Of a stretch of DNA of 64,000 bases, positions 32,171 through 56,980 are shown one piece after another. This stretch comes from Dehalobacterium formicoaceticum (GTDB taxonomy: Bacteria > Bacillota > Dehalobacteriia > Dehalobacteriales > Dehalobacteriaceae): contig NZ_CP022121.1 in NCBI RefSeq assembly GCF_002224645.1, positions 744,001 through 808,000 of the forward strand, in the 5' to 3' direction. The notes beneath the pieces were generated by a model. That model was not told where the DNA came from. It did no database searches and saw only the letters and a list, made by a program, of their open reading frames with translations. The position numbers and the translations under genes were made by a program. Position 1 is the stretch's first letter. Every line of letters begins with the position of its first letter.

Positions 32171-32199
32171 TTGACAAAACAAATAGATTGGCTTATACT
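32171..32199 (+). promoter_or_regulatory. Sigma-A promoter of the cobalamin-controlled transporter
   Basis: TTGACA (32171-32176) and TATACT (32194-32199) with a spacer of exactly 17 bases, about 25 bases before the riboswitch begins. This is the best promoter match in the window. Confidence 0.8.
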
Positions 32200-32221
32200 G
32201 GGCTCAATTGAAAACCAGATA

Positions 32222-32376
32222 TTTTTTAGGTGCCCGAAAGGGATAATAGGGAACCAGGTTATAAATCCTGGACGGTCCCGCCACTGTAATTAGACGTTAA
32301 AATATGTGCATTTGCCACTGGGTTCACTGGGAAGGCGTACATATTAGTCTATAAGTCAGGAGACCTGCCTGAAAAA
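32222..32376 (+). ncRNA. Cobalamin riboswitch 1
   Basis: The conserved blocks of the adenosylcobalamin aptamer are in order: AGGTGCC, AAAGGGATAATAGGGAA, the CCAGG-TATAAAT-CCTGG stem, CGGTCCCGCCACTGTAA, a second GCCACTG, GGGAAGGC and finally AGTCAGGAGACCTGCC (the B12 box). It is followed by an intrinsic terminator at 32396-32436, ahead of an ECF transporter, so binding of a corrinoid is expected to shut the transporter off. Confidence 0.95.
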
Positions 32377-32395
32377 TTTTCGAGATGAACAATGG

Positions 32396-32436
32396 TAAAG
32401 TTCTAGCTTATTACAAGCTGGAACTTTTTTTATTTT
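32396..32436 (+). terminator. Expression-platform terminator of riboswitch 1
   Basis: AAAGTTCTAGCTT and AAGCTGGAACTTT pair over 13 positions (one G-T) with loop ATTAC, followed by TTTTTTTATTTT. It stands 41 bases before the ATPase start and is the likely off switch. Confidence 0.88.
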
Positions 32437-32476
32437 CTAATATTTTTTCCATTATGCATATATAGGAGCTGTCGCC

Positions 32477-34021
32477 ATGGAAACCATCGCTCAGATCAAA
32501 ATTGAAAAGCTTTTCTTCCCCCAAACAGCCAATACTGCCCTGAAGAACATTGATTTTAAGATTAATAAAGGGGATTTTATTGTCATTACCGGTGGTGTGG
32601 CATCAGGAAAATCCGTTCTTCTCCACACGATCACAGGGGCAATTCCCCATTACCATCAAGGGGAGCTGGAGGGAAAAGTGACCCTGATGGGTCAGGATAT
32701 TAAAGACGTAAGTCTTAATCAAATGTCCCGGTATGTGGGGTATATGATGCAGGAACCTCAGAATCAACTGATTAGTTTGGATGTTTACGATGATGTTTCT
32801 TTTGGACTGGGCAACATGGAATTACCGATGGAACAAATCGATGAGATTGTGAAAGATACCTTGGAATTTGTGGGGCTTCGAGGCTTTGAAAACAGACAGA
32901 CCGCGTCTCTTTCAGGAGGGCAGGCTCAACGGGTAGTTTTGGCAGGTGTTTTGGCCCTCCGTGCCCCGATGCTGATTCTTGATCAGCCTACGGCCGAATT
33001 GGATCCCCGCGGCCGCTATGAGCTTTATCAAAGATTGGGACACTTAAATAAAACCCGAGATCTGACCATTGTTTTGGTGATGGATCGCATCGAAGAAGTT
33101 ATTACCTATGCCAACAGAGTTTTCTATATGGAAGAAGGGGAAATCGTCAGGGAATATTTCCCTGAGGAATATTTGAAAGAACGAAATGAGGAACTAAAAA
33201 AACGATTTCAAAATAAGAGCGTTGTGCGGGGCAAAAATCATCAACACCGTCAGGAAAAGGAGGTTGTTGTCAATATCAAAAATGCATCTTACCGGTATCC
33301 AAACAATTACACAGGCTGTGAGGATGTCAATTTAAAGATTTATCAGGGGGATTTTTTAGCGGTGATCGGTTTAAACGGTTCCGGAAAATCAACATTAGCA
33401 AAAATGATCGTTGGTTTATTACTGCCCACTAAAGGTACCATTGATGTTTTTCATGAATCCTTAATCAAGGAAAATCTAAATAAGATCCGTTCCCGGATCG
33501 GATTTTTATTTCAAAACCCTGACTATCAGATTTTTGCCAGTTCCTTGCGGGAAGAGGTTGGGTTTTCCTTGAAACTGAGGGGCGAAAAAAAGGAGGTGAT
33601 GGACAGAAAAATTGATGAGAGTCTAGAATTCGTGGGTCTTTTAAAATATAAGGATTTGCATCCTCAACGTTTAAGCCGCGGTCAGCGTCAGCTCTTAGCC
33701 TTGGCATCTGTTCTGGTCAGCGATCCGGAACTGATTATCGCTGATGAACCGACCTCGGGTCTTGACGAAAATCAAGGATATATGATTATGGATAAACTAG
33801 CTGATTTATCGAGGCTGGGAAAGACAGTCCTGCTCATTACCCATGATTTGACCATGGCCCAAAACTACTCCAACCGCATCGTGGCCATGTATAACCATCG
33901 GCTTCAACTGGATATCTCAACGAGTAAACTGAAGGAACATCTTAAACCTTTAATCGACATTGATTTGGATTTTGGAAATATTATTTCATTTAACAACCGG
34001 GACGAAGAGCGAGGAGGTTAA
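32477..34021 (+). CDS. ECF transporter ATPase, two fused ABC domains
   Basis: A 514-residue cytosolic subunit equivalent to EcfA and EcfA' in one chain. Domain 1 (residues 1-235): Walker A GGVASGKS, signature LSGGQAQRV, Walker B LILDQPTAELD, where the catalytic Glu is Gln (Q170). Domain 2 (about 260-490): Walker A GLNGSGKST, signature LSRGQRQL, Walker B LIIADEPTSGLD with the normal Glu. So one of the two ATP sites appears impaired. It leads a three-gene unit (ATPase, T, S) downstream of a cobalamin riboswitch, so the cargo is probably a corrinoid, its precursor or lower-ligand base. Confidence 0.92.
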   Translation: METIAQIKIEKLFFPQTANTALKNIDFKINKGDFIVITGGVASGKSVLLHTITGAIPHYHQGELEGKVTLMGQDIKDVSLNQMSRYVGYMMQEPQNQLISLDVYDDVSFGLGNMELPMEQIDEIVKDTLEFVGLRGFENRQTASLSGGQAQRVVLAGVLALRAPMLILDQPTAELDPRGRYELYQRLGHLNKTRDLTIVLVMDRIEEVITYANRVFYMEEGEIVREYFPEEYLKERNEELKKRFQNKSVVRGKNHQHRQEKEVVVNIKNASYRYPNNYTGCEDVNLKIYQGDFLAVIGLNGSGKSTLAKMIVGLLLPTKGTIDVFHESLIKENLNKIRSRIGFLFQNPDYQIFASSLREEVGFSLKLRGEKKEVMDRKIDESLEFVGLLKYKDLHPQRLSRGQRQLLALASVLVSDPELIIADEPTSGLDENQGYMIMDKLADLSRLGKTVLLITHDLTMAQNYSNRIVAMYNHRLQLDISTSKLKEHLKPLIDIDLDFGNIISFNNRDEERGG

Positions 34022-34024
34022 AAA

Positions 34025-34813
34025 ATGGAGATATCGTCTGTTGCTTATGAATCAATGGAAAAAACGAAACAAAAACTGAACGATAAATTGGATCCCCGCA
34101 CAAAGTTAGCCTGGTACGGGCTGATGATTCTTTTCGCTTTAATCTGTGAAACACCCTTTCAACTTATCGTTGTTTTATGTGTGGGCATGACTGTTTCCTT
34201 GATCTTAAAGGGTTCATTGAAACAATATCGGGTGATGATTGCAATCATGTTGCTTTTAGGACTGCAGATGCTGATTCTTCAGCTGCTATTCTGCCGGGAA
34301 GGTATGCTCCTTTATCAATGGGGTATGATTAAGATCTACAGTGAAGCCATCCCCCTCACAGTTCTTGGTATGTTGAGAACAACTGTAATTGTTTTTGCCA
34401 GCATGCAGTTTTTAACTTCTGCTTCACCGACGGAATTCACCTTGATGCTGATGAAGTTTAAAGTCCCTTATCGGTTTGCCATGCTGGTGGGACTGGGTGT
34501 TCGTTTCTTACCTTTGATGAAGGCTGAATATCTGTCGATTATTGAAAGCCAGAGTATCAGAGGTCTAAAAATGGAAAAGGTCTGGGACAAAATCAAGGCA
34601 ATAATTCCCACATTTCTGCCTTTTTTATACCGAGCGGTGAGGCGTTCCACAGAAATCGCCCTGGCCATGGACTTACGGGGTTACGGACAGAGTAAAACCC
34701 GTACATTTGCCTCAAATATTGAGATAAAAACATATGACCGGGTTTTAATCAGCGGCATATTTTTAATCATGATCCTTAGTTCTTTATACAAAATGGCACC
34801 ATTTGCAAGCTAA
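34025..34813 (+). CDS. ECF transporter T component (EcfT)
   Basis: A 262-residue membrane coupling protein with about five helices. The early LDPRTKLAWYGL and the C-terminal coupling-helix region with ALAMDLRGYG are family marks. The latter contains the (A/S)R(G) type motif that contacts the ATPases. It starts three bases after the ATPase stop, with GAGGAGG spanning the junction. It links the S component to the fused ATPase. Confidence 0.9.
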   Translation: MEISSVAYESMEKTKQKLNDKLDPRTKLAWYGLMILFALICETPFQLIVVLCVGMTVSLILKGSLKQYRVMIAIMLLLGLQMLILQLLFCREGMLLYQWGMIKIYSEAIPLTVLGMLRTTVIVFASMQFLTSASPTEFTLMLMKFKVPYRFAMLVGLGVRFLPLMKAEYLSIIESQSIRGLKMEKVWDKIKAIIPTFLPFLYRAVRRSTEIALAMDLRGYGQSKTRTFASNIEIKTYDRVLISGIFLIMILSSLYKMAPFAS

Positions 34814-34840
34814 AATACATCTATGCAGGGAGAGGATCAC

Positions 34841-35371
34841 ATGAAAGAAAGTTTATTTAGAACAGACACCAAAGCTTTAGTGGGCAGTGTCATTGTAGGA
34901 ATTGTATTTTTAATCATGATGCAAGTGACAGGGCGTATCGACGGTATTTTAGATCCTACTTTATTACTGTTTAATGGAACATGTTGGTCATTTTTTACCG
35001 GTCTCATTGTTTTAATGTACAAACAACCTGCCGGGATTATTGCCGGATTATTAGAAGCAATCATCGCCATGGCTACTGCCTACTCACCCTTGGCATTTTT
35101 CTTCCTGTTTGCCAATACCATTGGATCCATTATGTATTCATTGGTTGCCAGGGAGTTATCAATGGAGAAATTAAGCCATCATTATTTGGCAATGATCGCC
35201 TGTAATGTAACCGGTAACTTTTGTGTCATGCTGGGTTTGATTTTCGTTGTTAATTTAGACTGGAAGGTAGCCTTAGTTTCTTCCTCTATTACCACTTTGG
35301 TGGCGACCATTGTGGCAGGATTTCTTACTAAACGCGTTTATGGTGCTTTACAAAAATCGTCTTTGCTCTAA
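34841..35371 (+). CDS. ECF transporter S component, cobalamin-regulated
   Basis: A 176-residue protein of five to six hydrophobic helices that should bind the transported compound. The open frame begins 18 bases earlier, but GGGAGAGG lies inside that stretch, so ATG 34841 is the start. The helices ITEM-like pattern of MptD/CblT-type S components is seen in general layout only; the specific substrate cannot be read from sequence. Position between two cobalamin riboswitches and next to the lower-ligand pathway points to cobalamin, cobinamide, alpha-ribazole or a benzimidazole. Confidence 0.8.
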   Translation: MKESLFRTDTKALVGSVIVGIVFLIMMQVTGRIDGILDPTLLLFNGTCWSFFTGLIVLMYKQPAGIIAGLLEAIIAMATAYSPLAFFFLFANTIGSIMYSLVARELSMEKLSHHYLAMIACNVTGNFCVMLGLIFVVNLDWKVALVSSSITTLVATIVAGFLTKRVYGALQKSSLL

Positions 35372-35399
35372 GGGTTTATAAATAAAAATAATATAAGCT

Positions 35400-35568
35400 A
35401 TTTTCAGGTGCCCAGAAGGGAGAATAGGGAACCGGGTGCAAGTCCCGGGCGGTCCCGCCACTGTAACCGGTAGTCCGGCTCATAACCACCGTTTGTTGCC
35501 TAAAAGGTAAAGCAGGCGGGAAGGGAGCTGTGGATGGTAATCCGGAAGCCAGGAGACCTGCCTGAAAG
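35400..35568 (+). ncRNA. Cobalamin riboswitch 2
   Basis: A second full aptamer: CAGGTGCCCAGAAGGGAGAA, TAGGGAACCGGGTGCAAG, TCCCGGGCGGTCCCGCCACT, a variable P-stem region and AGCCAGGAGACCTGCC. It is closer to consensus than copy 1. It precedes the bza-cob operon and shuts it off when corrinoid is plentiful. An intrinsic terminator follows at 35616-35650. Confidence 0.96.
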
Positions 35569-35615
35569 ATGTGCTCTTCGTCTTAAAAGAGATGGAGCGT
35601 GGGAATGATGGAAAA

Positions 35616-35650
35616 TTCACACCGATCAGGTTGTGGATTTTTTCTTTTTA
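35616..35650 (+). terminator. Expression-platform terminator of riboswitch 2
   Basis: ATTCACACC and GGTTGTGGAT (G-T pairs and one mismatch) flank GATCA and run straight into TTTTTTCTTTTT. The next 110 bases up to bzaA hold no other hairpin of note. Confidence 0.65.
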
Positions 35651-35770
35651 ACCTGACTGAAAAGATACGACAAGATCTGATTTCGAAGGGAGGGAAGAGC
35701 AAGTCCGGGTAATTTAATTAAAGAGATTAGTTCTAAATAAATGAACTGACTAAGGTAGAGGAGGATAAAA

Positions 35771-37069
35771 ATGACTTTATTAACAAGTGCTTTGAATGGA
35801 ACAATTACTTCGGAAATGGAGCAGGTAGCAGTCCGGGAAGGGGTGACTCCGGAATTTATCAGGCAGGGAATGGCAGAAGGCAATATCGTGATTCCCTCTA
35901 ATATCAACCGTAAAAATATCACTCCTTTAGGCATCGGCAAAGGCCTTCGGACGAAAGTGAGTGCCAGTATCGGCCTCCACGGAAAGGACACTTCTCACAG
36001 CAAGGAAAAAGAGAAAATCGAAACTGCTTTAAAAGCCGGAACAGATGCCATTATGGATTTAAGTGCCGGTGGTGATATGGATGGTATGAGAAAAGAAACA
36101 CTTTCCTCAGCTTCTGTGCCGGTGGGGACACTCCCCATTTATCAGGCCATGGTTGAGGCGAGCCAAAAGTACGGTTCCTCGGTGAAAATGGATGTTGAGG
36201 AAATGTTTGAGGTGATTGAACGACATGCCGCGGATGGCGTTGATTTCTTAGCGATGCATTGCGGGACCACCATGGATATTGTGGAACGGGCAAAAAGTGA
36301 GGGACGGGTAGATCCCCTGGTAAGTTATGGAGGCTCCCACCTTATCGGCTGGATGATCGCTAACCAACGGGAAAACCCTTTATATGAGCAATATGATCGG
36401 GTGCTGGAAATTGCAAAAAAATATGATGTCACCCTTAGCTTGGCGGATGGGATGCGGCCTGGATGTTTGGCAGATTCCCTGGATGGCGCTCAGGTTCAGG
36501 AACTGGTAGTTCTGGGGGAATTAGTGCGCCGCGCCCGCGCGGCAGGGGTGCAAATTATGATCAAAGGACCGGGACATATGCCCTTAGATCATGTCAAAGC
36601 AACAGTTACCTTACAGAAAAGCCTGTGTAAAGGCGCTCCTTATTTTGTTTTTGGACCGCTGCTTACGGATATCGGAGTGGGCTATGATCACATAAACGCT
36701 GCCATCGGGGGGGCGATCAGTACTTGGGCCGGCGCAGAATTTCTCTGCTATGTCACACCGGCGGAGCATATTGGGTTACCTGACGCACAACAGGTTCATG
36801 AAGGTGTGATTGCCGCCCGTATTGCTGCCCATGCCGGGGATTTGGCAAAAGGAAGAAAAGAGGACTATCAATGGGATTTGGACATGTCCATGGCGCGGAA
36901 AAGTTTAGACTGGAAGAAGCAATTGGAATTATCAATTGATCCTGTAAGAGCTGCGGAAATCAGAAAAACCCGGAATAGCGGCGAATCCACAGGATGTGCC
37001 ATGTGCGGCAAATATTGCGCCATGGAAATTATCGCTAAGTATTTGAAGATAGAAAAACATAGCTGTTAA
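35771..37069 (+). CDS. bzaA: 5-hydroxybenzimidazole synthase component BzaA (ThiC paralogue)
   Basis: A 432-residue radical-SAM-type enzyme related to ThiC. With BzaB it converts 5-aminoimidazole ribotide to 5-hydroxybenzimidazole, the first step of anaerobic lower-ligand synthesis. The ThiC fold is shown by AGTDAIMDLSAGGDMDGMR, MHCGTTMDIV and GPGHMPLDHV. The C-terminal iron-sulfur motif reads CAMCGKYC (CX2CX3C), where ThiC has CX2CX4C. A cobalamin riboswitch, tandem paralogue and cobS-cobT downstream rule against a thiamin role. AGAGGAGG precedes the ATG. Confidence 0.92.
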   Translation: MTLLTSALNGTITSEMEQVAVREGVTPEFIRQGMAEGNIVIPSNINRKNITPLGIGKGLRTKVSASIGLHGKDTSHSKEKEKIETALKAGTDAIMDLSAGGDMDGMRKETLSSASVPVGTLPIYQAMVEASQKYGSSVKMDVEEMFEVIERHAADGVDFLAMHCGTTMDIVERAKSEGRVDPLVSYGGSHLIGWMIANQRENPLYEQYDRVLEIAKKYDVTLSLADGMRPGCLADSLDGAQVQELVVLGELVRRARAAGVQIMIKGPGHMPLDHVKATVTLQKSLCKGAPYFVFGPLLTDIGVGYDHINAAIGGAISTWAGAEFLCYVTPAEHIGLPDAQQVHEGVIAARIAAHAGDLAKGRKEDYQWDLDMSMARKSLDWKKQLELSIDPVRAAEIRKTRNSGESTGCAMCGKYCAMEIIAKYLKIEKHSC

Positions 37070-37088
37070 AAAAGAAGGGGTGGATAAA

Positions 37089-38384
37089 ATGACTCAGGTT
37101 TTAAAAGCACGTGCCGGAATTATTACCGAGGAAATGGAAAAAGTAGCTCTTGATGAGGGAGTAACCCCAGAATTTGTAAGGCAGGGAGTTGCCGGGGGAA
37201 CAATTGTTATTCCTAAGAATAAAAAACGGAAAGAATTTAAAGTATGCGGCATTGGTGAGGGCATGAGCATTAAGGTCAATGCTTTAATCGGTACATCCAG
37301 CGACTGTGATGACATGGAGCTGGAAGCGAAAAAACTGGCTGCGGCAGAAGAAGCAGGATGTAACAGTTTTATGGATTTAAGTACAGGAAGCGATATTGAC
37401 GGGATGCGGCATCAGACCCTTTCTTTAGCCCATGTTGCCGTGGGCTGCACTACCATTTATCAGGCAGGGATTGAAGCCATCGAAAAGTACGGCAGTGTGG
37501 TCGATATGAAAGAAGATGAAATTTTTGAAGTCATTGAAAGACAGGCAGCGGATGGTATGGATTTTATGGCTATTCATTGTGCCCTTAATTTTGATGTGAT
37601 CAAGAGAATGCAGACTACCGGCAGAGTGACTCAGGTAGTAAGCAGAGGGGGTTCCTTCCTCACCGGTTGGATGCTGCACAACCAAAAAGAAAATCCTCTA
37701 TATGCCCAATATGACCGGGTACTGGAGATTATGAAGGCTTATGATGTGACATTAAGCCTGGGAGATGCCATCCGTCCGGGATGCATTGCCGATTCCCTGG
37801 ATGGAGCCCAATTGGAAGGAATGATCATTCAGGGCCAACTGGTGCAACGAGCTCAGGAGGCCGGTGTGCAGGTCATGGTGGAAGGACCAGGCCACGTTCC
37901 TCTCAATCATGTGGATGCGACGATGAGAGTACAAAAAAGCCTGTGTAACAATGCTCCTTATTATATTTTAGGTACCCTTGCTACTGATATTGCCCCTGGT
38001 TACGACCATATTACCGGAGCTATTGGAGGAGCTTTGATCGGATCTTGCGGGGCAGACTTTTTATGTTACTTAACCCCGGCGGAACACCTGGGACTGCCCA
38101 TTGAAGAAGATGTGCGAACCGGTGTCATCGCCACGAGAATGGGCGCACACATTGCGGATATTTCCCGAGGTAATAAAAAGGCCTGGCAAAGAGATCTGGC
38201 AATGGCCAAGGCCCGAGTCAATCGTGATTTAGACCGGCAAATTGAGTTGGCTTTGTATCCGGATAAGATCAAGGCTGCAGCTCAGGATGCGGATTTTGAC
38301 CAAATATGCGGGGTATGCGGGTCAGAATGTGCCGCTCAGGTTGCGGCAGAATATTTTGGGCTGGGATCCAATCATTCTCTTTAA
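37089..38384 (+). CDS. bzaB: 5-hydroxybenzimidazole synthase component BzaB (ThiC paralogue)
   Basis: A 431-residue partner of BzaA, colinear with it along the full length (CNSFMDLSTGSDIDGMRHQT; MAIHCALNFDVI; EGPGHVPLNHV). The C-terminal cluster motif is CGVCGSEC, again CX2CX3C. The frame opens at a GTG at 37080, but AAGGGGTGG sits there, so ATG 37089 is the start. It lies 19 bases after bzaA. Which of the two is called A or B is by order in known operons. Confidence 0.92.
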   Translation: MTQVLKARAGIITEEMEKVALDEGVTPEFVRQGVAGGTIVIPKNKKRKEFKVCGIGEGMSIKVNALIGTSSDCDDMELEAKKLAAAEEAGCNSFMDLSTGSDIDGMRHQTLSLAHVAVGCTTIYQAGIEAIEKYGSVVDMKEDEIFEVIERQAADGMDFMAIHCALNFDVIKRMQTTGRVTQVVSRGGSFLTGWMLHNQKENPLYAQYDRVLEIMKAYDVTLSLGDAIRPGCIADSLDGAQLEGMIIQGQLVQRAQEAGVQVMVEGPGHVPLNHVDATMRVQKSLCNNAPYYILGTLATDIAPGYDHITGAIGGALIGSCGADFLCYLTPAEHLGLPIEEDVRTGVIATRMGAHIADISRGNKKAWQRDLAMAKARVNRDLDRQIELALYPDKIKAAAQDADFDQICGVCGSECAAQVAAEYFGLGSNHSL

Positions 38385-38415
38385 CATTAACGTTTTTGTT
38401 CAGGGATTTGGCTGG

Positions 38416-38446
38416 CGGGGACATTCCTTGTAGACCCATGTCCCCG
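38416..38446 (+). other. Stem-loop in the bzaB-cobS gap
   Basis: CGGGGACAT and ATGTCCCCG pair perfectly over nine bases with a 13-base loop, in the 147-base gap between bzaB and cobS. No T tract follows, so an intrinsic terminator is unlikely; mRNA processing or partial attenuation is possible. Confidence 0.5.
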
Positions 38447-38531
38447 GCGGCCTGTTTCAATGGTGCTGCCTGGTTAGGATTTGTTTAAAGTGTGGCAAGT
38501 AAATCAAGAAGGTAATTGCAGGTGAATTGGT

Positions 38532-39281
38532 GTGATTGGTGTGAAATTTTTGGTTGCACTTCAGTTTCTGACAGGAATTCCCGTAAAGATTCACACCCAG
38601 TTCGATGAAAAATTGGTAGCCCAGTCTATGGCCTTCTTTTCCCTTATTGGACTGATTTTGGGAGGCTGTGCCGTAGGTGTACATTTTTTGCTGGCTCATA
38701 TTTTTTCCCTTCCTGTGAGTAATTTCTTTGCGGTGGTTTTTCTCATTATTTTAACAGGAAATCTCCATGGGGACGGATTAATGGATACAGCTGATGGGGT
38801 TTTCAGCGGCAGACCCCGGGAGCGGATCCTGGAAATTATGAAAGACAGCAGGGTAGGATCCCACGGTGTGATGGCGGCTATGATTTTTTTTCTGGGTCGG
38901 TTGATGTTATTGGGGGAAATGCCCCAGGAGATGCAGGAGTGGACCCTGGTGCTGGCAACCGTTTTCGGCCGTTGGTCCCAGGTATTGGGCGCAGCTTGGT
39001 ATCCTTATGCGCGAAAAGATGGAGGAACCGCTTCCTTTACAAATTATGTTGGGTACCGGGAAGTCTTAATCAGCTTGTTTTTTCCGGTGGTTCTTAGTGT
39101 TTATTTATTAAAATTTCAGGCTGTGCTGCTTTTGGGATTTGTGGTGTTATCGATCTTGGTCCTGAATAATTATTTTCTAAAAAAGATCGGCGGGGTTACC
39201 GGAGATACATTAGGTGCGGTAAACGAATGTGTTGAGGTGCTTCTGCTCTTGATGCTGGTGATCTTTGATAAATTTTCATAA
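38532..39281 (+). CDS. cobS: Adenosylcobinamide-GDP ribazoletransferase
   Basis: A 249-residue polytopic membrane enzyme that joins the activated lower ligand (alpha-ribazole) to adenosylcobinamide-GDP in the last step of B12 assembly. The early FLTGIPVK and the conserved acidic motif GNLHGDGLMDTADGVFSG are typical. A second signature, GGVTGDTLGAVNE, is near the C-terminus. The start is GTG at 38532 (or GTG 38541), with a GCAGGTG site. Its place between bzaB and cobT ties lower-ligand synthesis to attachment. Confidence 0.93.
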   Translation: MIGVKFLVALQFLTGIPVKIHTQFDEKLVAQSMAFFSLIGLILGGCAVGVHFLLAHIFSLPVSNFFAVVFLIILTGNLHGDGLMDTADGVFSGRPRERILEIMKDSRVGSHGVMAAMIFFLGRLMLLGEMPQEMQEWTLVLATVFGRWSQVLGAAWYPYARKDGGTASFTNYVGYREVLISLFFPVVLSVYLLKFQAVLLLGFVVLSILVLNNYFLKKIGGVTGDTLGAVNECVEVLLLLMLVIFDKFS

Positions 39282-39312
39282 TATATTTTTAAATGATGGG
39301 GGAGGGGAAAAC

Positions 39313-40383
39313 ATGGGTGTAAAGCTTCAGGAAGCAATAGCAAATATTAAACCCGTTGATAAAATATGGCGGGAAAAAGCCAGAAGGCATATTGACCAAT
39401 TGGCTATTCCCCTGGGGAGCTTGGGGGATTTGCTGGATCTGGCGGAACAGCTGTCCGGAATTCAGGAAACATTAAAACCTTCTGTGAGGAAGAAAATGGT
39501 GGTTACCATGGCGGGAGATCACGGAGTGGTCGAGGAAGGAATCAGCTTGTGTTCTCAGGAGGTAACACCTCAAATGATCAATAATTTTGTCATGGGCGGA
39601 GCCTCTGTTAATGTCTTGGCGGAAGTTGCCGAGGCCGGGGTTACCGTGGTTGATATGGGTGTAGCAGCGGATTTAAGCTTCTTGGTGCAGGATGGAAAAA
39701 TTCAATCTTATAAGATCGCCCCCGGGACCCGTAATATTGCCAGGGAAGCAGCGATGACCCGGGAGCAGGCAATCCGGGCTCTGGAAACCGGTATTGAGAT
39801 TGCGGGCAATCTGGCGGCAGACGAGGTGGAACTGCTGGCTACCGGTGATATGGGGATCGGTAACACGACACCCAGCAGTGCGGTATTGGCATCATTGACC
39901 GGGCGTCCGGCAGCTCAGGTAACAGGCAGAGGTACCGGACTAAGTGATGAGGCGCTGGCCCACAAAGTCCGGGTGATTGAAAAGGCTCTTACCGTGAACC
40001 AACCTGACGGGAAGGATGCCATTGATGTTTTGTCCAAGGTTGGGGGCTTTGAAATCGGAGGCATCGCCGGGTTGATTCTGGGCGCGGCCTATTACCGGAT
40101 ACCCATATTGATTGATGGATTTATTTCTTCCGCCGGAGCACTTCTCGCTAAGGACATCGCCCCTGATGCTGTTGATTACATGATTGCCGCCCATCAATCC
40201 ATGGAGTATGGGCACCGGTTTATGCTGGAGGAGCTGGGACTGAAGCCGATTCTGAACATGAACCTGCGTTTGGGAGAAGGAAGCGGGGCAGCATTAGCGA
40301 TGAATATTGTGGAATCAGCCGCCCAGGCCATGTGCAAGATGCTGACTTATCAAGATTCCGGCGTGGCCAGTCCGGTACAGTAA
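39313..40383 (+). CDS. cobT: Nicotinate-nucleotide--dimethylbenzimidazole phosphoribosyltransferase
   Basis: A 356-residue cytosolic enzyme that makes alpha-ribazole phosphate from nicotinate mononucleotide and a benzimidazole base. PLGSLGDLLDLAEQL, TMAGDHGVVEEGISL, ATGDMGIGNTTPSSA and the catalytic Glu in MNLRLGEGSGAALAM are all present. The frame is open from 39265, but GGGGGAGGGG directs initiation at ATG 39313. It is the activating enzyme for the base made by BzaA-E. Confidence 0.95.
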   Translation: MGVKLQEAIANIKPVDKIWREKARRHIDQLAIPLGSLGDLLDLAEQLSGIQETLKPSVRKKMVVTMAGDHGVVEEGISLCSQEVTPQMINNFVMGGASVNVLAEVAEAGVTVVDMGVAADLSFLVQDGKIQSYKIAPGTRNIAREAAMTREQAIRALETGIEIAGNLAADEVELLATGDMGIGNTTPSSAVLASLTGRPAAQVTGRGTGLSDEALAHKVRVIEKALTVNQPDGKDAIDVLSKVGGFEIGGIAGLILGAAYYRIPILIDGFISSAGALLAKDIAPDAVDYMIAAHQSMEYGHRFMLEELGLKPILNMNLRLGEGSGAALAMNIVESAAQAMCKMLTYQDSGVASPVQ

Positions 40384-40399
40384 AGAAGGTGAATAAAAG

Positions 40400-41950
40400 A
40401 TGAAAAAGCTGGATTTTATGAAACATGATCCCCAGGAGAACAATCCTCAATATCTTGAGGATCTGGCTACCGGTTACTGGTTTTCAGAAGTTCTTTTTAC
40501 GGCTGTGGAAATGGACATTTTTTCATCCTTGGAACCGGTGGGGAAGACACTGGAAGAATTAGTTCAGGGCACGGAATTAAATGAGTCAGGATTAAAACGA
40601 TTTATGAAGGCTTTATGTGCCCTGGGCTTAGTTTCAGCGAATGGTTCAACTTATTATAACGGTCAAATGGCAGCTAAGTATCTGGTCAGGGGCAGGGAGG
40701 ACTACCAGGGTGATTCCATCCTGTGGCGCAAACATATTTTTGATAATTGGCGCAGTCTGAAAGACTGTCTTCTGGAAGGGACGAGAGTAGTATACTCCCC
40801 CGTCGAAGATGATCTGACGGAACTGGAGGAAAGGAACCGTTGGTACAGTTCTGCCATGGGCTCTGTTGCCCGTAATAAGGCCGAGGAAATTTTACCATTT
40901 TTCCGGGATCTGTCTCTCACAGGTAATATTTTAGATGTTGGCGCGGGCACAGGGTCTATTGCTGCCGCCTTTCTGGAAACATATCCAGAATCCCAGGCGA
41001 CACTTTTGGACCTGGATGCTGTTTTGGTTTATGCCCAGGAACAATTATCAGGTAAGTTTGGGGAGCGGATCAAATACTTTCCGGCCAATATTTTGGAGTC
41101 CTGGCCGGTTGAGGAGGGTCAATTTGATTTAGTGATCCTTTCAAATATTGTGCATGCTTATGGGGAAGAGGAAATTTCTCTGATATTAAAGAGGGCGGCA
41201 GCTTGTCTGAAACCGGAGGGGTATTTGCTCATTCATGATTTCTTTTTTGAGCACGGTCATGAAAAAGCGGCTCTTTTTGATCTTAATATGTTTGTTAATA
41301 CCTTTAATGGAAAGGTGTTTAGCATTCATTGGATCAGAGAACAACTACAGGAACTGGGGCTTGCTGTGACGGAGATGGTGCCCTTGTCATCGGATACCTC
41401 ATTGATATTTGGCGCTAAAAATGAAGATCGATTAAAAGCCCTGTCTTTGAACAAAAAGGGCCAACTGGCAGCTAAAATAGAGCACCTGGGTTTTCGCAAA
41501 GCTTCGGTGGTCTCCACTGAAATCATTCATATACCCAATTGGGTGAATTGGCACTGCAATTACGGTTGCAGTAATTTCGGTGCGCCCCACTGTCCTCCCA
41601 ACAGCCCATCTCCCCAACAAACAAGAGAGATGCTTCAAGATTATACCACCTGTATTTTGATTGAAGGTGAACCACCCACCGGAGACTTTCAGCGCCAGGT
41701 ACTAAAGGCGGAGAAAGCAGCTTTTTATGATGGGTATTATCGAGCTTTCGCTCTTTGGGCAGGCCCCTGCTCCATCTGTGCAGAATGCGGCGGTACAGAA
41801 GGATGTAAGAATACTCAAAGTGCCCGGCCTTCCATGGAAGCATCCGGGATTGATGTCTATGAGACGGTAAAGAGAGCGGGGATCTCTTTAAAACCCTTGT
41901 CGCCTGATGATTACTATGTAAAATATTTTGCAATTTTATTATTGGAGTGA
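40400..41950 (+). CDS. bzaC: BzaC-type O-methyltransferase fused to a DUF2284 metal-binding domain
   Basis: A 516-residue two-part protein. Residues 1-345 form a dimerising SAM O-methyltransferase (N-terminal helix-turn-helix-like part, then ILDVGAGTGSIAAAFLE and LVILSNIVHAYGEE); in the bza pathway this step turns 5-hydroxy- into 5-methoxybenzimidazole. Residues about 355-516 form a DUF2284-like domain: CNYGCSNFGAPHCPPNSP, then GPCSICAECGGTEGC, with at least seven cysteines that could bind a metal or Fe-S cluster. The linker has no stop or frameshift, so the fusion is real in this sequence. It starts 16 bases after cobT. Confidence 0.88.
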   Translation: MKKLDFMKHDPQENNPQYLEDLATGYWFSEVLFTAVEMDIFSSLEPVGKTLEELVQGTELNESGLKRFMKALCALGLVSANGSTYYNGQMAAKYLVRGREDYQGDSILWRKHIFDNWRSLKDCLLEGTRVVYSPVEDDLTELEERNRWYSSAMGSVARNKAEEILPFFRDLSLTGNILDVGAGTGSIAAAFLETYPESQATLLDLDAVLVYAQEQLSGKFGERIKYFPANILESWPVEEGQFDLVILSNIVHAYGEEEISLILKRAAACLKPEGYLLIHDFFFEHGHEKAALFDLNMFVNTFNGKVFSIHWIREQLQELGLAVTEMVPLSSDTSLIFGAKNEDRLKALSLNKKGQLAAKIEHLGFRKASVVSTEIIHIPNWVNWHCNYGCSNFGAPHCPPNSPSPQQTREMLQDYTTCILIEGEPPTGDFQRQVLKAEKAAFYDGYYRAFALWAGPCSICAECGGTEGCKNTQSARPSMEASGIDVYETVKRAGISLKPLSPDDYYVKYFAILLLE

Positions 41951-41955
41951 GCAGG

Positions 41956-43284
41956 ATGCGAATATTATTGGTACAAACCCCCTCTGTGGAGAGTGTGACC
42001 CAAGAAAGAGTTTATCCTATCGGCATTGTGAGCCTGGCGACTTACCTTAAAAAAGCCGGCTATGATGTGGGACTTCTGGATATGAATTTAGAGGCGGATC
42101 AATTTGGAGCTTTGAAGGAACGGCTCTTAGACTTTCAGCCGGATCTGGTAGGTTTATCACTAAGAAACATCGACCCTTTAGCCAACAAAACCAGTTCCCT
42201 GATCCCTCCTTTTATCGTAACCGTGCGTTTGGTATCAGCTCTTTTACCAAAGGCTCGGCTTGTGGTTGGGGGGACCGGTTTTTCTCTCTTTCCGGAACGG
42301 ATCATGGCAGAGCTGCCGGAGATTGATTACGGAATTGTCGGCGAGGGAGAAAAATCCTATCTGGCATTGCTCCGTTCATTGGACAATCCCCCTATGATTC
42401 CCGGATTGTGCTATCGCAAAGGGGAGAAAATCGAAAGGATTCCTGCTATTGCCGACTTTGATATGAGGGAATATCTGGTTCCGGACCGAAGTCTCCTCGC
42501 CCCCGAATTATATACCGGGATCAATCAGTATGCTCCTTCCATGGGCATTGAAACTTCCCGGGGCTGCCCATTCCAGTGTACTTATTGTGTGTATGGGCGG
42601 CTGCAAGGGGAAAAGCTTCGCTGTCGGGAACCGCGGCAAGTAGTCGACGAATTAGAATTTTTGTACAAGGAACACAGCGTCCAAAATTTTCATTTTAACG
42701 CCCCTGTGGTTAATCTTCCCAGTGAGCATTTGGATGAGATTTGCCGGGAAATCCTGGGACGCAGGCTCCAGATTACATGGAGCGGTTTTTTTAGAGAAGA
42801 TTTATTAAATGAAGAAAATGTTTTTCTTTATGAAGCGGCCGGCTGTAATTGCTTTTCTTTGTCGCCTGACGGTCTTAGCCAGCAAGCCCTTGATGTACTG
42901 GGTAAAAACATGAAGATAGAAGATGTGATTCGGGCAGGTGAGTTAACCGCCCAAACAGATGTCTGTACCATGTATCATTTTTTGGTGAATGTTCCCGGCG
43001 AAAACTCTGAAACCATAAAAAGCGGCATGGAGCTATTGGATCGTCTTTATGAGCTCCACGCAAAAAAAAGAAACCTGGGAACGGTGGTCTTAAATAACAT
43101 TCGCATTTTTCCGGGGACGCCCATAGAAAAAATTGCTCTGGCCCAGGGAGTAATATCACCCCATACCGATTTGATCTATCCGGTATATTACAATCCTCAG
43201 CCCTATGAAATGCTTCGGTATCAATTGGAAACCTATCACTTATGTAAAAATGTTTTTATGTGGCAGGAAGTGAGGTTATCATAA
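41956..43284 (+). CDS. bzaD: Cobalamin-type radical SAM methyltransferase BzaD
   Basis: A 442-residue enzyme with an N-terminal B12-binding-like domain (residues 1-150) and a radical SAM core whose cluster motif is GCPFQCTYC (CX3CX2C). In the published pathway BzaD puts a methyl on C6 of 5-methoxybenzimidazole. The frame opens at GTG 41947, overlapping bzaC, but GGAG at 41944-41947 is placed for ATG 41956. Its stop shares one base with the bzaE start. The assignment rests on operon order as well as family. Confidence 0.85.
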   Translation: MRILLVQTPSVESVTQERVYPIGIVSLATYLKKAGYDVGLLDMNLEADQFGALKERLLDFQPDLVGLSLRNIDPLANKTSSLIPPFIVTVRLVSALLPKARLVVGGTGFSLFPERIMAELPEIDYGIVGEGEKSYLALLRSLDNPPMIPGLCYRKGEKIERIPAIADFDMREYLVPDRSLLAPELYTGINQYAPSMGIETSRGCPFQCTYCVYGRLQGEKLRCREPRQVVDELEFLYKEHSVQNFHFNAPVVNLPSEHLDEICREILGRRLQITWSGFFREDLLNEENVFLYEAAGCNCFSLSPDGLSQQALDVLGKNMKIEDVIRAGELTAQTDVCTMYHFLVNVPGENSETIKSGMELLDRLYELHAKKRNLGTVVLNNIRIFPGTPIEKIALAQGVISPHTDLIYPVYYNPQPYEMLRYQLETYHLCKNVFMWQEVRLS

Positions 43285-44786
43285 TGAAGGTTCTGCTCTT
43301 AGAGCATCCCCGGTATATTGCCCGGGAAAGATGTAATGATATTGCCAATACACCCCTGTCCTCCAGTTTGATTAGCGGCTATGTTGCCGGTATGTTGTCC
43401 GACAGGGGACATGAAGTAAAAATAATTGAAGGATATTTGGAAAAGATGTCCTATGATGAGATCTTCGATGAGGTTCGGGACTTCTCCCCGGATCTGATGG
43501 CGGTACACCTGGTGTACAGCTGGGGGAATAATCAGAACTTATTTGCTTTGATCAACAAATTAAAATCGGATGGTAGCGCGAAGTTTGTCCTGGTGTACGG
43601 ATTTTATCCCACTTTTGCCTATGAAGAAATCCTCCGATCATGTCCGGCTCTTGACGGAGCCGTAATCAGTGAACCTGAACTTACCCTTGCAGAATTGACG
43701 GAAAGGTTTGACGGTACTGGTGTTCCCAAAAGTATCTCCGGCATGGCTTGGCGGAATGAAGACGGTTCTCTTGAGGTAAAGAGACGGGACCCTGTTGAAA
43801 ATCTGGATGATCTGCCTTATCCGTTGCGTACTCCGGTGATGATGAAGATGTATGAAGTTAATCTGGAAGGCAGCAGGGGCTGTTACGGTGGATGTACCTT
43901 TTGCTATATTAATCCTTACTATGGACGAGAGCATGCTTGCTGGCGGGGTCGTACGCCGGAACATATCATGAGTGAAATAGATCAGATTATAGCTAAGTGG
44001 GGGAAAAAAGAGTTCTATTTTACCGATCCCAACTTTTTCGGCCCTGGGAAAAGAGGGCAGGAAAGGGCTCTGAAATTGGCGCAGATGATAAAAGAGAGAA
44101 AGATTCATTTTGGCATTGAGGCGCGAGTCAATGATATTCATGAAGAAACCATTTCCGCTTTGGTGGAGGCAGGCTTGAGGGATATCCTGATCGGACTGGA
44201 AAGCGGCAAGGATGATTCCCTGAAACGTCTCAATAAAATGACTACCGTCGCCCAAAATGAAAGAGCCCTGAAAATCCTTCGGAAGTATGGCATTGAGCCC
44301 AATGTGGGGTTTATTATGTTTGAGCCGGATTCTTCATTGGCCGATATCAGAACCAACCTTGAATTTCTTTTGAGAAACGATTTATTAAAAAACTTAGCGA
44401 TTACGGCCAATGTACTTTATCATCCCCAGATTATTCTTCAGGGCACCAAGGCTTACCAAGAATTAAAAAAGGCGGGCCGGCTGGTGCTTGGTGCCACTAC
44501 CTATGAAGGGGCAGCTGATTTTGCTGATCCCCAAGTAAAGACTCTAGCCGAGGCCATGAGCCAAATTACCAATCATCTTTTTGTGAAAATGAATGATATT
44601 TGGAGCGGCAGGGTGCCAGAGCCGGAAGACGCAGAAGGAAGATATCAAAAATTAAACCAACTGCTGGTCCAAAGTTTTAGCCATGGCTTGGAGCAGCTGG
44701 AATCAGGTGTGGTATTTTCTAATGAGGAGATTAGTCAAATCGTAGCTTTCCAAAAGCAGAAAATGAATGAATATTTACCCCTGTAA
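43284..44786 (+). CDS. bzaE: Cobalamin-type radical SAM enzyme BzaE
   Basis: A 500-residue enzyme of the same class as BzaD. It has an N-terminal B12-binding-like Rossmann domain (LISGYVAGMLSDRGHEVKII) and a radical SAM core with GCYGGCTFC (CX3CX2C) and the TIM-barrel strand YFTDPNFFGPGKR. BzaE completes 5,6-dimethylbenzimidazole from 5-methoxy-6-methylbenzimidazole. The frame is open from GTG 43260, but AGTGAGG inside it directs ATG 43284, which overlaps the bzaD stop (TAATG). It is the last gene of the operon; a partial copy of its 3' end lies at 46072. Confidence 0.85.
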   Translation: MKVLLLEHPRYIARERCNDIANTPLSSSLISGYVAGMLSDRGHEVKIIEGYLEKMSYDEIFDEVRDFSPDLMAVHLVYSWGNNQNLFALINKLKSDGSAKFVLVYGFYPTFAYEEILRSCPALDGAVISEPELTLAELTERFDGTGVPKSISGMAWRNEDGSLEVKRRDPVENLDDLPYPLRTPVMMKMYEVNLEGSRGCYGGCTFCYINPYYGREHACWRGRTPEHIMSEIDQIIAKWGKKEFYFTDPNFFGPGKRGQERALKLAQMIKERKIHFGIEARVNDIHEETISALVEAGLRDILIGLESGKDDSLKRLNKMTTVAQNERALKILRKYGIEPNVGFIMFEPDSSLADIRTNLEFLLRNDLLKNLAITANVLYHPQIILQGTKAYQELKKAGRLVLGATTYEGAADFADPQVKTLAEAMSQITNHLFVKMNDIWSGRVPEPEDAEGRYQKLNQLLVQSFSHGLEQLESGVVFSNEEISQIVAFQKQKMNEYLPL

Positions 44787-44789
44787 GAG

Positions 44790-44838
44790 AAGATGCCCGT
44801 CTGAAGAATTTGGCCAAATTCTTCAGACGGGCATCTTT
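44790..44838. terminator. Terminator of the bza-cob operon
   Basis: A 20-base near-perfect stem (GATGCCCGTCTGAAGAATTT and its complement) with a short loop, ending in GCATCTTTGG. The T tract is short but the stem is very stable. A diverged copy of the same hairpin is at 46137-46183. Confidence 0.75.
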
Positions 44839-47223: not shown

Positions 47224-49773
47224 GTGGACATGGCAGCTCCCGGGGAAGTTATTCTAAGTACCTCCCCCGGAGGAAAATATGAATCCCGGCAAGGTACCTC
47301 CTTCTCCGCCGCTTTGGCGGCGGCTGCGGCCGCCCTGCTCCTTGAACAAAATCCGGATATGCAGCCCGCTGAGATAAAAAAGGCCCTGATGGAAACGGGA
47401 GATTTGTTGTCAACCCTAATAGAGAGAACCCAAACCGGCAGAAAAGTGAATGCAGGGAATGCCCTTGAAAAAATCAGACCGGATCAAATAACGGATATTG
47501 AAGGCAGTGTTATACCGGTGGATAGGGATATGCAGGTAAGGGAAAGTATTGATATGACAGTCCTCCGTCAGGGTGACGGCGGTAAGCCGGGCACGGTTAC
47601 AGGGGGATTTGGTTACCATATGATGATTGTGGACGGAACCGTCTGGGCCTGGGGCAGAAATTGGACAGGTCAATTGGGCGACGGGACAAATATAAATCGC
47701 GCCATGCCGGGGCCTGTGCGTAATTTATTTCAGGTAACTGCTGTGGACGGCGGTTTTGAACACAGCATCGCCTTAAAAAGTGACGGCACGGTCTGGACCT
47801 GGGGTAACAATAGCTATGGTAAATTAGGTGACGGAACAACTACCTCACGCTACGCACCGGTGCAGACAGCCGGATTATCCGATGTTACTGCCATTTCAGC
47901 CGGGTATGATTTTAATATTGCCCTAAAAAGCGACGGCACAGTATGGGCTTGGGGCAGAAACCGGTATGGCCAATTGGGTGACGGCACCACTGTGTCCAGC
48001 TCTTTACCGGTGCAGGTCAGCGGTTTGCGGAACATCATCGCTATCAGTGCCGGTTGTGAACATGCCTTGGCCATAAAAAGTGACGGTACCGTTTGGGCTT
48101 GGGGCAAAAATGGAAAAGGCCAGCTGGGTGACGGGACAAACACCGCGCGTAATACGCCGGTGCAGGTGACGGGCTTGAATTCAATTACTGCCATCTCCTG
48201 CGGAGTGGATCATACCCTGGCTGTTAAAGAGGACGGCACCGTCTGGGCCTGGGGAGATAATTCTTATGGCGCGTTAGGAGACGGCAGTTTGGTGGGTCGT
48301 AATATACCGGTCCAGGTCGATGGTTTACTCAATGCCCAAAAGGTCATTGCAGGATATTATTACAGTCATGTGCTGAAAGATGACGGTACCCTGTGGTCGG
48401 CAGGCTTCAATAATAGCGGAAGCCTGGGTGACGGAACATCAACAGACAGCAGTATCTTCAAAATGAATCCGTATCTCACTCAGGTAACAGAGGTAGGGGA
48501 GCATAACGGAAGGAATACCATGATCTTAAAAGCAGATGGTTCGTGCTTTTTGTGGGGGCCGAACAATTATGGTCAACTGGGGCCCGGCACCAACGCCTAT
48601 TATGAGAGTGTGCCGTTGAAGCTGGGCCTCCAGACCTCCATCGTTAAAGGAGCGGCCGGCAGCTATCACTCCATGGTCGTGGAAAAGGGTGAAGTCCTGG
48701 CCTGGGGATATAATGGAAGCGGCATCTTGGGAGACGGAACAACAACGAATCGCAATACACCGGCAAAGGTGCTGCAGCTGCAACAGGTGATGGGCATTTC
48801 CGGCAAGAATTTGCACAGTCGGGCCTTACTGAGTGACGGGACTGTTAAAGCCTGGGGTAATAACAGCCAGGGACAGTTAGGTGATAATACAAGAACAGGC
48901 AGACTCACCCCGGTGTCGGTGTTAAACCTAAACCATATCGTAGGAATCGGTGCCGGTTACTATCACAGTGCGGGCCTGAAAAGCGACGGAACCGTTTGGA
49001 CCTGGGGGATGAACAGTTCCGGCCAGCTGGGAACCGGAGATTATTACTTTTATCTGGCTCCGGTGCAGGTGAGCAGCTTGAGCGGCGTCAAAGCCATTTC
49101 CGTGGGCAGGCAGCATAATCTGGCTCTGAAAAGCGATGGCACTGTCTGGGCTTGGGGAGAAAACGCATATGGTCAGCTGGGTGATAATACGACGACGGGG
49201 CGGGTAGTTCCGGTGCAGGTCCTCGCCCTAAGCGATATCGTTGCTGTATCAGCCGGCGATAGAAATTCATTGGCCTTGAAAAGCGACGGTACGGTCTGGT
49301 CCTGGGGAGGCAGTACGACTCCTTATCTCCCGACGCAAATATCCACCTTAAGCAATGTAACAGGAATATCCGCAGGGGGTGTGCACAACCTGGTCTTAAA
49401 AAGCGATGGCACAGCCTATGCCTGGGGGCAAAACTACTACGGTCAGTTGGGGGATGGTACTAATACTACCCGGGGAGTACCTGTAAAGGTGCAGCGTTTC
49501 GAAAGCGGCGTCCTGGTATCGGCCGGATATGATTTTTCTTTAGGTCTAAGCAGTGATCATAATATCTGGACCTGGGGACAGAACACATATGGACAGTTGG
49601 GCGATGGTACCTTTAGATCCAATGTGTGGCCCAAGCCCAATATTTCTACGGGTCCCAGTTTCTATTATCAATATGATCATAACAATCGTTTAATCATGAG
49701 GCAAGGCAATACGACCTGGCAGTTTATATATGATCAGAACGGGAATCTGCTGTCCAAAGAACCGTTAAATTAA
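47224..49773 (+). CDS. Subtilase C-terminal fragment fused to 14 RCC1 repeats and a YD tail
   Basis: An 849-residue frame. Residues 1-82 are the last part of an S8 catalytic domain: VDMAAPGEVILST and the serine motif GTSFSAALAAAA. Residues about 125-825 hold 14 RCC1-like units with the core LKSDGTVWAWGxNxxGQLGDGT. The end (YYQYDHNNRLIMRQG; FIYDQNGNLLSKE) is YD-like and cut short. There is no signal peptide and no ribosome site; homology continues a few codons upstream (YGKSS) until a TAA at 47195-47200, so the gene is 5'-truncated. It was probably once joined to the propeptide at 45144. Expression is doubtful. Confidence 0.7.
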   Translation: MDMAAPGEVILSTSPGGKYESRQGTSFSAALAAAAAALLLEQNPDMQPAEIKKALMETGDLLSTLIERTQTGRKVNAGNALEKIRPDQITDIEGSVIPVDRDMQVRESIDMTVLRQGDGGKPGTVTGGFGYHMMIVDGTVWAWGRNWTGQLGDGTNINRAMPGPVRNLFQVTAVDGGFEHSIALKSDGTVWTWGNNSYGKLGDGTTTSRYAPVQTAGLSDVTAISAGYDFNIALKSDGTVWAWGRNRYGQLGDGTTVSSSLPVQVSGLRNIIAISAGCEHALAIKSDGTVWAWGKNGKGQLGDGTNTARNTPVQVTGLNSITAISCGVDHTLAVKEDGTVWAWGDNSYGALGDGSLVGRNIPVQVDGLLNAQKVIAGYYYSHVLKDDGTLWSAGFNNSGSLGDGTSTDSSIFKMNPYLTQVTEVGEHNGRNTMILKADGSCFLWGPNNYGQLGPGTNAYYESVPLKLGLQTSIVKGAAGSYHSMVVEKGEVLAWGYNGSGILGDGTTTNRNTPAKVLQLQQVMGISGKNLHSRALLSDGTVKAWGNNSQGQLGDNTRTGRLTPVSVLNLNHIVGIGAGYYHSAGLKSDGTVWTWGMNSSGQLGTGDYYFYLAPVQVSSLSGVKAISVGRQHNLALKSDGTVWAWGENAYGQLGDNTTTGRVVPVQVLALSDIVAVSAGDRNSLALKSDGTVWSWGGSTTPYLPTQISTLSNVTGISAGGVHNLVLKSDGTAYAWGQNYYGQLGDGTNTTRGVPVKVQRFESGVLVSAGYDFSLGLSSDHNIWTWGQNTYGQLGDGTFRSNVWPKPNISTGPSFYYQYDHNNRLIMRQGNTTWQFIYDQNGNLLSKEPLN

Positions 49774-49796
49774 TATTTGAAGGATAGAAGGGCGGG

Positions 49797-50306: not shown

Positions 50307-50546
50307 CCGGTTGAATCAGACAGCAGTCAAAGTACCGAAAAAGATGCACCGGCTGAAGAAAGGGGAGCTGCCCCCGATACATCCGACCAAACCCTTAACG
50401 ATGAAGATATTGTAACGGAAGAATCCCTCCCGGAAACTGTAATCGAAGAGGGATACGAACCGGAGCAGGATCAGGCTGATGAAACCGAACCCGAAGGGGC
50501 ACCGGCAGGGGATGAGTCTGCCGGTGCTGATTCCTCCGGCCCGGAG

Positions 50547-56003: not shown

Positions 56004-56021
56004 GATAGGAGGACGGAGAAA

Positions 56022-56744: not shown

Positions 56745-56749
56745 GTGTA

Positions 56750-56816
56750 GGGGTTGCGGGGTTATTGGCATGTTACAGGGGGGTGTGCTGAAATCGTCTC
56801 AATACCCGCAACCTCC
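56750..56816. repeat. RHS-border stem-loop element A
   Basis: GGGTTGCGGGGTTATTGGCAT is followed about 40 bases on by CAATACCCGCAACC. The arms GGTTGCGGG and CCCGCAACC pair. It shares the cores GGGTTATTGGCAT, GGGGGTGT and CAATACCC with elements B and C, though the arm sequences differ. It lies right after the immunity gene stop. Confidence 0.6.
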
Positions 56817-56888
56817 TAGTCTCAAAGCCATTATTATTAGAACATGGGACGATCCTTGAAGGGTTCATTTCGGAAGCTTTGCTGTAAT

Positions 56889-56933: not shown

Positions 56934-56980
56934 TGACCATCTTAGATGTTCAGCAAAATTTTTTTGAGGTTCTGAACATC

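Follow-up and report, generated by a model that had tools for sequence, protein, structure and literature searches.

How does an anaerobe furnish vitamin B12 (cobalamin) with its lower-ligand base, 5,6-dimethylbenzimidazole (DMB), and what part does the second half of one of the proteins involved, BzaC, play in it? Both questions are raised by a gene cluster of Dehalobacterium formicoaceticum, a dichloromethane-fermenting anaerobe whose genome consists of one contig of 3,766,545 bases. The cluster occupies positions 32171-44838 of the 64,000-nucleotide stretch that was analysed (the window; NZ_CP022121.1, positions 744,001 to 808,000), and comprises two cobalamin riboswitches, a transporter of the energy-coupling factor (ECF) type and a bzaA-bzaB-cobS-cobT-bzaC-bzaD-bzaE operon; all of its genes, like all other features of the cluster placed below, lie on the forward strand. 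We are confident in reading this locus as a cobalamin-switched operon for anaerobic DMB synthesis, in which the DUF2284 half of BzaC most likely serves the step of BzaE. The operon itself adds one more example of the known bza kind; what had gone unremarked is the DUF2284 half and its tie to BzaE. In what follows, other loci and genomes are identified by L and G numbers, respectively.

The lower-ligand operon and its predicted product

One riboswitch (32211-32386; RF00174, 103.7 bits) heads the ECF transporter and the other (35389-35579; RF00174, 110 bits) heads the seven-gene run from bzaA to bzaE; both exceed the gathering score, align with model positions 1-189 and are the sole Rfam matches at gathering level in the window. 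A complete lower-ligand locus under two cobalamin riboswitches, with the upstream transporter under one of its own, had been proposed in a preliminary description made from the sequence, and this is borne out, all bza and cob genes having been identified. The order given there, two tandem ThiC paralogues, cobS, cobT, an O-methyltransferase and two B12-type radical S-adenosylmethionine (SAM) enzymes, was likewise recovered with protein profiles and relatives.

Within the run, the genes overlap or are separated by gaps of at most 147 bases. The ThiC-like BzaA (35771-37069) and BzaB (37080-38384) are both supported by clade placement, BzaB scoring 771.3 bits with TIGR04386, above the cut-off of 700, and BzaA 613 bits, below it. 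They are followed by CobS, the adenosylcobinamide-GDP ribazoletransferase (38532-39281; TIGR00317, 156.5 vs. 110 bits), and CobT, the base phosphoribosyltransferase (39265-40383; TIGR03160, 433.8 vs. 319.3 bits), whose coordinates run from the first TTG and whose true start may be downstream. Next come BzaC (40400-41950; 516 residues), which combines an O-methyltransferase with DUF2284 according to Pfam profiles, and two B12-binding radical SAM proteins, BzaD (41947-43284; motif CPFQCTYC; TIGR04385, 674 vs. 450 bits) and BzaE (43260-44786; motif CYGGCTFC). BzaE has no curated model and, like BzaA, was assigned via relatives in homologous operons, together with its motif and its B12-binding domain.

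Judging by gene identity, and with the steps taken from the published pathway, BzaA and BzaB would convert aminoimidazole ribotide to 5-hydroxybenzimidazole, CobT would activate the base, the O-methyltransferase half of BzaC would yield the 5-methoxy compound, BzaD would add the 6-methyl group, BzaE would swap the methoxy for a methyl group, and CobS would join the product to the corrinoid. DMB is thus the expected product of the strain. The bzaABCDE pathway was reportedly described by Hazra et al. in 2015 for Eubacterium limosum and Acetobacterium woodii, whose gene set is the same as that of D. formicoaceticum and whose gene order is the same apart from cobS; unlike in those two species, cobS stands here between bzaB and cobT, as it also does in four other loci (L017, L036, L059 and L070). 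PMC8123684 states that E. limosum and A. woodii, which have this ABCDE set, make cobalamin. D. formicoaceticum is itself marked as having cobalamin biosynthesis in Table 1 of PMC6778437, and PMC10344839 reports nearly every gene of both the upper and the lower cobalamin pathway to be present in it; the word bza is absent from the main text of the latter paper.

A thiamin role for the two ThiC paralogues had been judged unlikely from gene order and riboswitch control, and it is rejected here on the basis of a tree and of the thiamin genes of the genome. In the tree of 102 rows, neither paralogue branches with true ThiC: the window BzaA falls within a BzaA clade (37 rows; branch value 98, starred) and the window BzaB within a BzaB clade (41 rows; 95, starred), and the thiamin ThiC clade stands separate (99, starred), with one Desulfosporosinus protein and 13 same-class relatives, taken from 13 of 14 loci (L165-L178, L167 being left out). 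In five of these 13 relatives, ThiC lies within 1.5 kb of a thiamin pyrophosphate (TPP) riboswitch. The window contains no TPP riboswitch; the three in the genome head ThiW-ThiM-ThiE, TenA with an ABC transporter, and ThiD, genes of salvage or joining steps, and the strain appears to salvage thiamin precursors. Given these genes, and since no third ThiC-family protein was found in the genome at E 0.001, the most plausible role of BzaA and BzaB is in B12 synthesis. That one of them also feeds thiamin synthesis is very improbable: the only two ThiC-family proteins of the genome do sit at this locus, which speaks for such a role, but both belong to Bza clades and follow a cobalamin riboswitch, and the thiamin genes fit salvage (ThiG was not searched for). 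It is also quite improbable that the pathway halts at 5-methoxy-6-methylbenzimidazole and that the gene called bzaE has another role. The lack of a curated model and the assignment via relatives leave room for this; against it, the protein keeps its radical SAM motif and B12-binding domain and is mostly 53-67% identical to BzaE of homologous operons (51% in L074, 35-40% in three Desulfobacteraceae).

A fourth clade of the tree (100, starred), which may represent BzaF, is made up of ThiC-like proteins that occur singly, eight from Nitrospirota and one from a member of the Desulfobacteraceae. At the Nitrospirota loci (L046, L051, L053, L060, L061, L064, L067 and L073), the one ThiC-like protein, a probable BzaF, lies beside a fused bzaC-bzaD-bzaE.

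DUF2284 of BzaC and its occurrence with BzaE

BzaC had been described as an O-methyltransferase only. That part stands (residues 12-325, 40433-41374; dimerisation and methyltransferase domains in Pfam) and is assigned by Methyltransf_2 and by operon relatives, no BzaC model having matched, but a DUF2284 domain at residues 370-515 (41507-41944; PF10050, 116.6 vs. 25 bits) had been missed. Seven cysteines, at residues 386, 390, 398, 457, 460, 463 and 469, are invariant in 44 aligned BzaC DUF2284 domains. In the window protein they are spaced as CX3CX7C and CX2CX2CX5C, the last spacing of each group differing in some relatives, and patterns of this kind would suit iron-sulphur clusters.

BzaC relatives were gathered by scanning genome contigs of 84,980 species with patterns from the O-methyltransferase part only, so that the 64 loci obtained are unbiased towards DUF2284. 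The BzaC proteins of E. limosum and A. woodii were not among the loci returned; a plasmid search gave one distant radical SAM protein, and two scans of viral contigs gave no relative. The scan loci and further genome stretches were scored for DUF2284, bzaD and bzaE, and a 68-row BzaC tree was prepared from which identical sequences and matches of less than about 250 residues had been removed. Two loci at contig ends were treated separately: L072, where the contig ends in bzaC and the genome, without BzaD, was not searched for BzaE, was not counted, and L068 was counted with BzaE, since BzaD of its genome, G439, is placed as in G368, in which BzaE comes next. Across the remaining 67 rows, DUF2284 and BzaE are both present in 57, both absent in 7, and alone in 2 (DUF2284) and 1 (BzaE), and DUF2284 and BzaD are both present in 56. 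The raw Fisher p of 4e-7, obtained on a 66-row table (56 with both, L068 left out), is not a fair probability because the rows are related. The idea that the fusion is a peculiarity of this genome is ruled out, the fused form being the commoner one among the BzaC relatives found.

On the tree, the fusion state changes at least six times, all forced by starred branches, and one of these changes, that of Cryptoclostridium, goes against the rule; whether a change was a loss or a gain cannot be read from the tree alone. Over six independent pairs, DUF2284 and BzaE differed in the same way 5.0 times on average and in opposite ways 0.2 times (median p 0.0625, range 0.0625-0.219, where 0.0625 is the best value possible with five informative pairs); the corresponding figures for BzaD are 3.0 and 0.2 (median p 0.25). 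Further, seven genomes whose BzaC is unfused and whose locus is without bzaE (G055 and G425-G430) contain no BzaE at 1e-60 when searched as whole genomes; a 31%-identical radical SAM protein that appeared in G425 at a looser cut-off was not taken as BzaE. In the family of G427 (45 genomes, overlapping with those of the contig scan), BzaE, at no less than 52% identity, is present in each of the 14 genomes with a full fused BzaC (split in two in G442 and with one in-frame stop in G469); it is missing from all five with unfused BzaC, and also from G457, whose bzaC is decayed. Among 398 genomes of the phylum, fused BzaC and BzaE occur together in 20 of the 21 that bear BzaD (cut-off 1e-100).

The loci in which BzaD and BzaE part company are telling about the partner of the domain. 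At two Desulfosporosinus loci (L045 and L048), bzaD is intact (TIGR04385, 733 and 729 bits), the genome contains no BzaE, and 28 residues from the end of DUF2284, 64-75% identical to fused Desulfosporosinus relatives, survive as a relic in the interval from the O-methyltransferase stop codon to bzaD. This relic indicates that the fused form is ancestral there and that the domain and bzaE were lost in separate events flanking bzaD. Moorella thermoacetica DSM 21394 (G432; L052 5889-13212), for its part, has bzaA-bzaB-cobT-bzaC-bzaE with a fused bzaC, and a search of its genome at 1e-80 gave no BzaD; its base, perhaps 5-methylbenzimidazole, is difficult to predict. DUF2284 thus follows BzaE, not BzaD. 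Cumulatively, because of its co-occurrence with BzaE, exceptions included, the repeated joint change of state, the relic and the seven invariant cysteines, we tie DUF2284 to BzaE, and the second half of BzaC probably serves the BzaE step, from methoxy to methyl.

Predicted fold, proposed role and alternatives

A confident AlphaFold model of the window DUF2284 (predicted local distance difference test score, pLDDT, 87) gave its top structure matches with NpRdhA, a reductive dehalogenase (Z 6.9), and with QueG, the epoxyqueuosine reductase (Z 6.8); nitroreductases, MMACHC (6.5) and BluB (5.9) also matched, as did a permuted ribosomal protein S6 at 5.7, and none of 220 chains reached Z 8. A second model, of the stand-alone DUF2284 from L064 (pLDDT 78.5; 25 sequences, mostly common to the first model), matched epoxyqueuosine reductase with Z 8.4 and, slightly lower, reductive dehalogenases with Z 8.1; 7 of 332 chains reached Z 8, and all 50 of the matches shown read as a wide nitroreductase-like group. 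The predicted fold aligns, though weakly, over most of the domain with QueG, reductive dehalogenases, MMACHC (CblC), BluB and nitroreductases. QueG has no detectable sequence relation to DUF2284, and no solved structure matches the window domain by sequence at E 1. Both QueG and the reductive dehalogenases use 4Fe-4S clusters together with B12. On the strength of these models, we regard an iron-sulphur redox domain of B12-reductase or nitroreductase fold as a lead for DUF2284. Mentions of DUF2284 in the open-licence literature, in the parts that were available, include none about bza and none assigning a function; the titles and abstract starts of that literature include none linking bza genes with E. 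limosum, DMB or Moorella.

The fusion of a methyltransferase to DUF2284 is also found in arsenite methyltransferase/DUF2284 selenoproteins (NF041536) and in MbdU (NF045648). NF041536 matches BzaC residues 351-516 with 113.8 bits; BzaC stays far below the cut-offs of both families (575 and 600 bits), and the window bzaC has no in-frame TGA. A second DUF2284 is present elsewhere in the genome of D. formicoaceticum (G000:C1:3089587-3090054); its frame of 457 residues contains a single in-frame TGA and in this resembles the arsenite methyltransferase/DUF2284 selenoproteins.

A locus of the Moorella type, L019, with bzaA-bzaB-cobT-bzaC, has BzaA, BzaB, CobT, an O-methyltransferase and a cobalamin riboswitch in common with D. 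formicoaceticum and, unlike it, no BzaD, no BzaE and no DUF2284 on BzaC. In Moorella this operon type gives a 5-methoxybenzimidazolyl cobamide, according to PMC8123684, and the domain is therefore seemingly not needed for O-methylation. We tentatively propose that BzaC is bifunctional: the O-methyltransferase half would install the methoxy group, and the DUF2284 half would assist BzaE in removing it, acting as an iron-sulphur reductase that perhaps binds a corrinoid or flavin and would be akin in fold to QueG, reductive dehalogenases, CblC and BluB, the DMB synthase of aerobes; in this detail the proposal is possible rather than probable. To our knowledge, the mechanism by which BzaE exchanges the methoxy group on the aromatic ring for methyl has not been settled. 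A reductase domain joined to the O-methylating enzyme could either reduce the cobalamin of BzaE or activate the aryl methoxy for departure; the redox role, the partner and the chemistry are all what we infer.

Several observations weigh against this reading. The fold match is weak, with Z near the level of unrelated models and Foldseek E values of 0.068 (window) and 0.055 (L064), and profile alignment of DUF2284 with QueG by hhalign fails (probability 1.3). The sign test on the DUF2284-BzaE pairs does not reach 0.05. In Cryptoclostridium (L020 and L074, which belong to one genome), BzaD and BzaE occur although BzaC is unfused; this BzaC is fast-evolving (end branch 1.87). The genome holds other DUF2284 proteins (e.g. 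L021), but a relative, G010, has such a protein without BzaE. Candidatus Formimonas warabiya (G003) and L076 show the opposite, a fused BzaC without BzaE, and in G474, of the G427 family, BzaE is partial and BzaC was not found at 1e-40, possibly through a draft gap; many of the genomes are drafts and may hide genes. The E. limosum bza operon is reported to make DMB in Escherichia coli, where a control search found no DUF2284, so that, if E. limosum BzaC is unfused, the domain is not strictly required there. Finally, DUF2284 adjoins bzaD and bzaE, so that a single deletion can remove all three.

That last point leads to the rival explanation that DUF2284 is a passenger between the O-methyltransferase part and bzaD-bzaE, lost with deletions of these genes and taking no part in the BzaE step. 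Compared with Moorella L052, to which its DNA is 96% identical, L019 lacks DUF2284 and bzaE as one contiguous stretch, as a passenger would, and the joint of bzaC(1-95) with bzaD(286-313) in Desulfosporosinus lacus also speaks for it. We nevertheless consider this unlikely, since the losses at L045 and L048 flank an intact bzaD and need two deletions, G432 keeps DUF2284 and BzaE without BzaD, and the seven cysteines are invariant in the 44 BzaC domains. G432 bears equally on the suggestion that DUF2284 supports BzaD as well as BzaE, both being B12 radical SAM proteins, for instance as a common reductase: it keeps the domain without BzaD, and L045 and L048 keep BzaD without the domain. The joint presence of DUF2284 and BzaD in most rows speaks for a shared role, which we nonetheless hold to be improbable. 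We thus retain service to the BzaE step as the reading of DUF2284, either through reduction of its cobalamin or through activation of the methoxy group.

Operon variants, regulatory sites and neighbouring genes

Other bza loci vary in what they retain. Three (L025 6138-14600, L026 and L031) have cobS-cobT-bzaC-bzaD-bzaE with no bzaA or bzaB within the stretch examined (the rest of the genome was not searched), and in L025 a cobalamin riboswitch heads a permease of the cytosine/purine type (PF02133), as if a benzimidazole precursor were imported. Candidatus Dichloromethanomonas elyunquensis (L082 6545-14600) carries cobT-bzaC-bzaD-bzaE-bzaA-bzaB, although Table 1 of PMC6778437 lists it without cobalamin biosynthesis; it may furnish scavenged corrinoids with a base of its own. 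Among the dichloromethane fermenters of that table is, beside D. formicoaceticum, Candidatus Formimonas warabiya, whose fused BzaC stands alone (L038 9950-11554), with no match to the ThiC family, BzaD or BzaE, and is perhaps a remnant. In Desulfosporosinus lacus (L085 10001-10363), the joint of bzaC and bzaD arose by internal deletion; bzaA and bzaB are full-length, BzaE is absent, and the species may stop at 5-hydroxybenzimidazole. Two Desulfosporosinus operons, one of them the L045 locus (L226 995-1495), have, by reading of the sequence, a PurE-like gene between bzaB and bzaC, whose substrate pool is next to that of BzaA and BzaB.

Plentiful cobalamin would probably act on both riboswitches to switch off the transporter and the synthesis genes. 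A cobalamin riboswitch was found in seven of eight further bza loci scanned (L025, L028, L030, L042, L045, L048 and L052), the stretch of the eighth, L049, starting 208 bases 5' of bzaA and thus with its leader cut; L017, L019 and L020 have one as well. A promoter-like site, TTGACA-17-TATACT, matching the consensus at 11 of 12 positions (32171-32199), precedes riboswitch 1, and a terminator-like hairpin with a T run from an inverted-repeat scan (32397-32427) lies directly 3' of it and is likely its expression platform. For riboswitch 2, a stretch of 216 bases beginning at 35575 is somewhat better folded than its shuffled versions (z -2.1), with no clear terminator found in it for an expression platform. 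The same scan gave a 20-pair inverted repeat after bzaE (44792-44835), likely a terminator. Promoter-like and hairpin sites are about as frequent in the region as in shuffled sequence (22 vs. 23.8 and 18 vs. 14.5, respectively).

The ECF transporter consists of an ATPase with two fused ABC domains (32477-34021; TIGR04520, 394.6 vs. 315 bits), a CbiQ-like T component (34025-34813; PF02361, 97.2 bits) and a small membrane protein (34823-35371) with no Pfam or NCBIfam match, likely the substrate (S) component, of a family without a name. A search of 298 other genomes of the phylum gave relatives of this small protein in 16, one being a weak match; within the stretches examined (L193-L208), 2 of the 16 loci have a cobalamin riboswitch, and several adjoin UbiD-like or aldehyde ferredoxin oxidoreductase genes (one of each was checked). 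It possibly represents a transporter family for corrinoids or their precursors. On the 3' side of the operon, the window (47224-60784) encodes an 849-residue RCC1-repeat protein, subtilase-like over a short part at its start, and two proteins with RHS repeats (1818 and 1074 residues).

The operon accounts for how a dichloromethane-fermenting anaerobe with corrinoid-protein metabolism could make complete B12 alone. If the proposed role of DUF2284 is true, anaerobic DMB synthesis needs an activity that has gone uncounted, and DUF2284 gains a function; a domain that comes and goes with BzaE is a concrete second component for the methoxy-to-methyl step. In practice, the length of BzaC, about 515 or about 350 residues, may be of use in predicting the B12 base from a genome.

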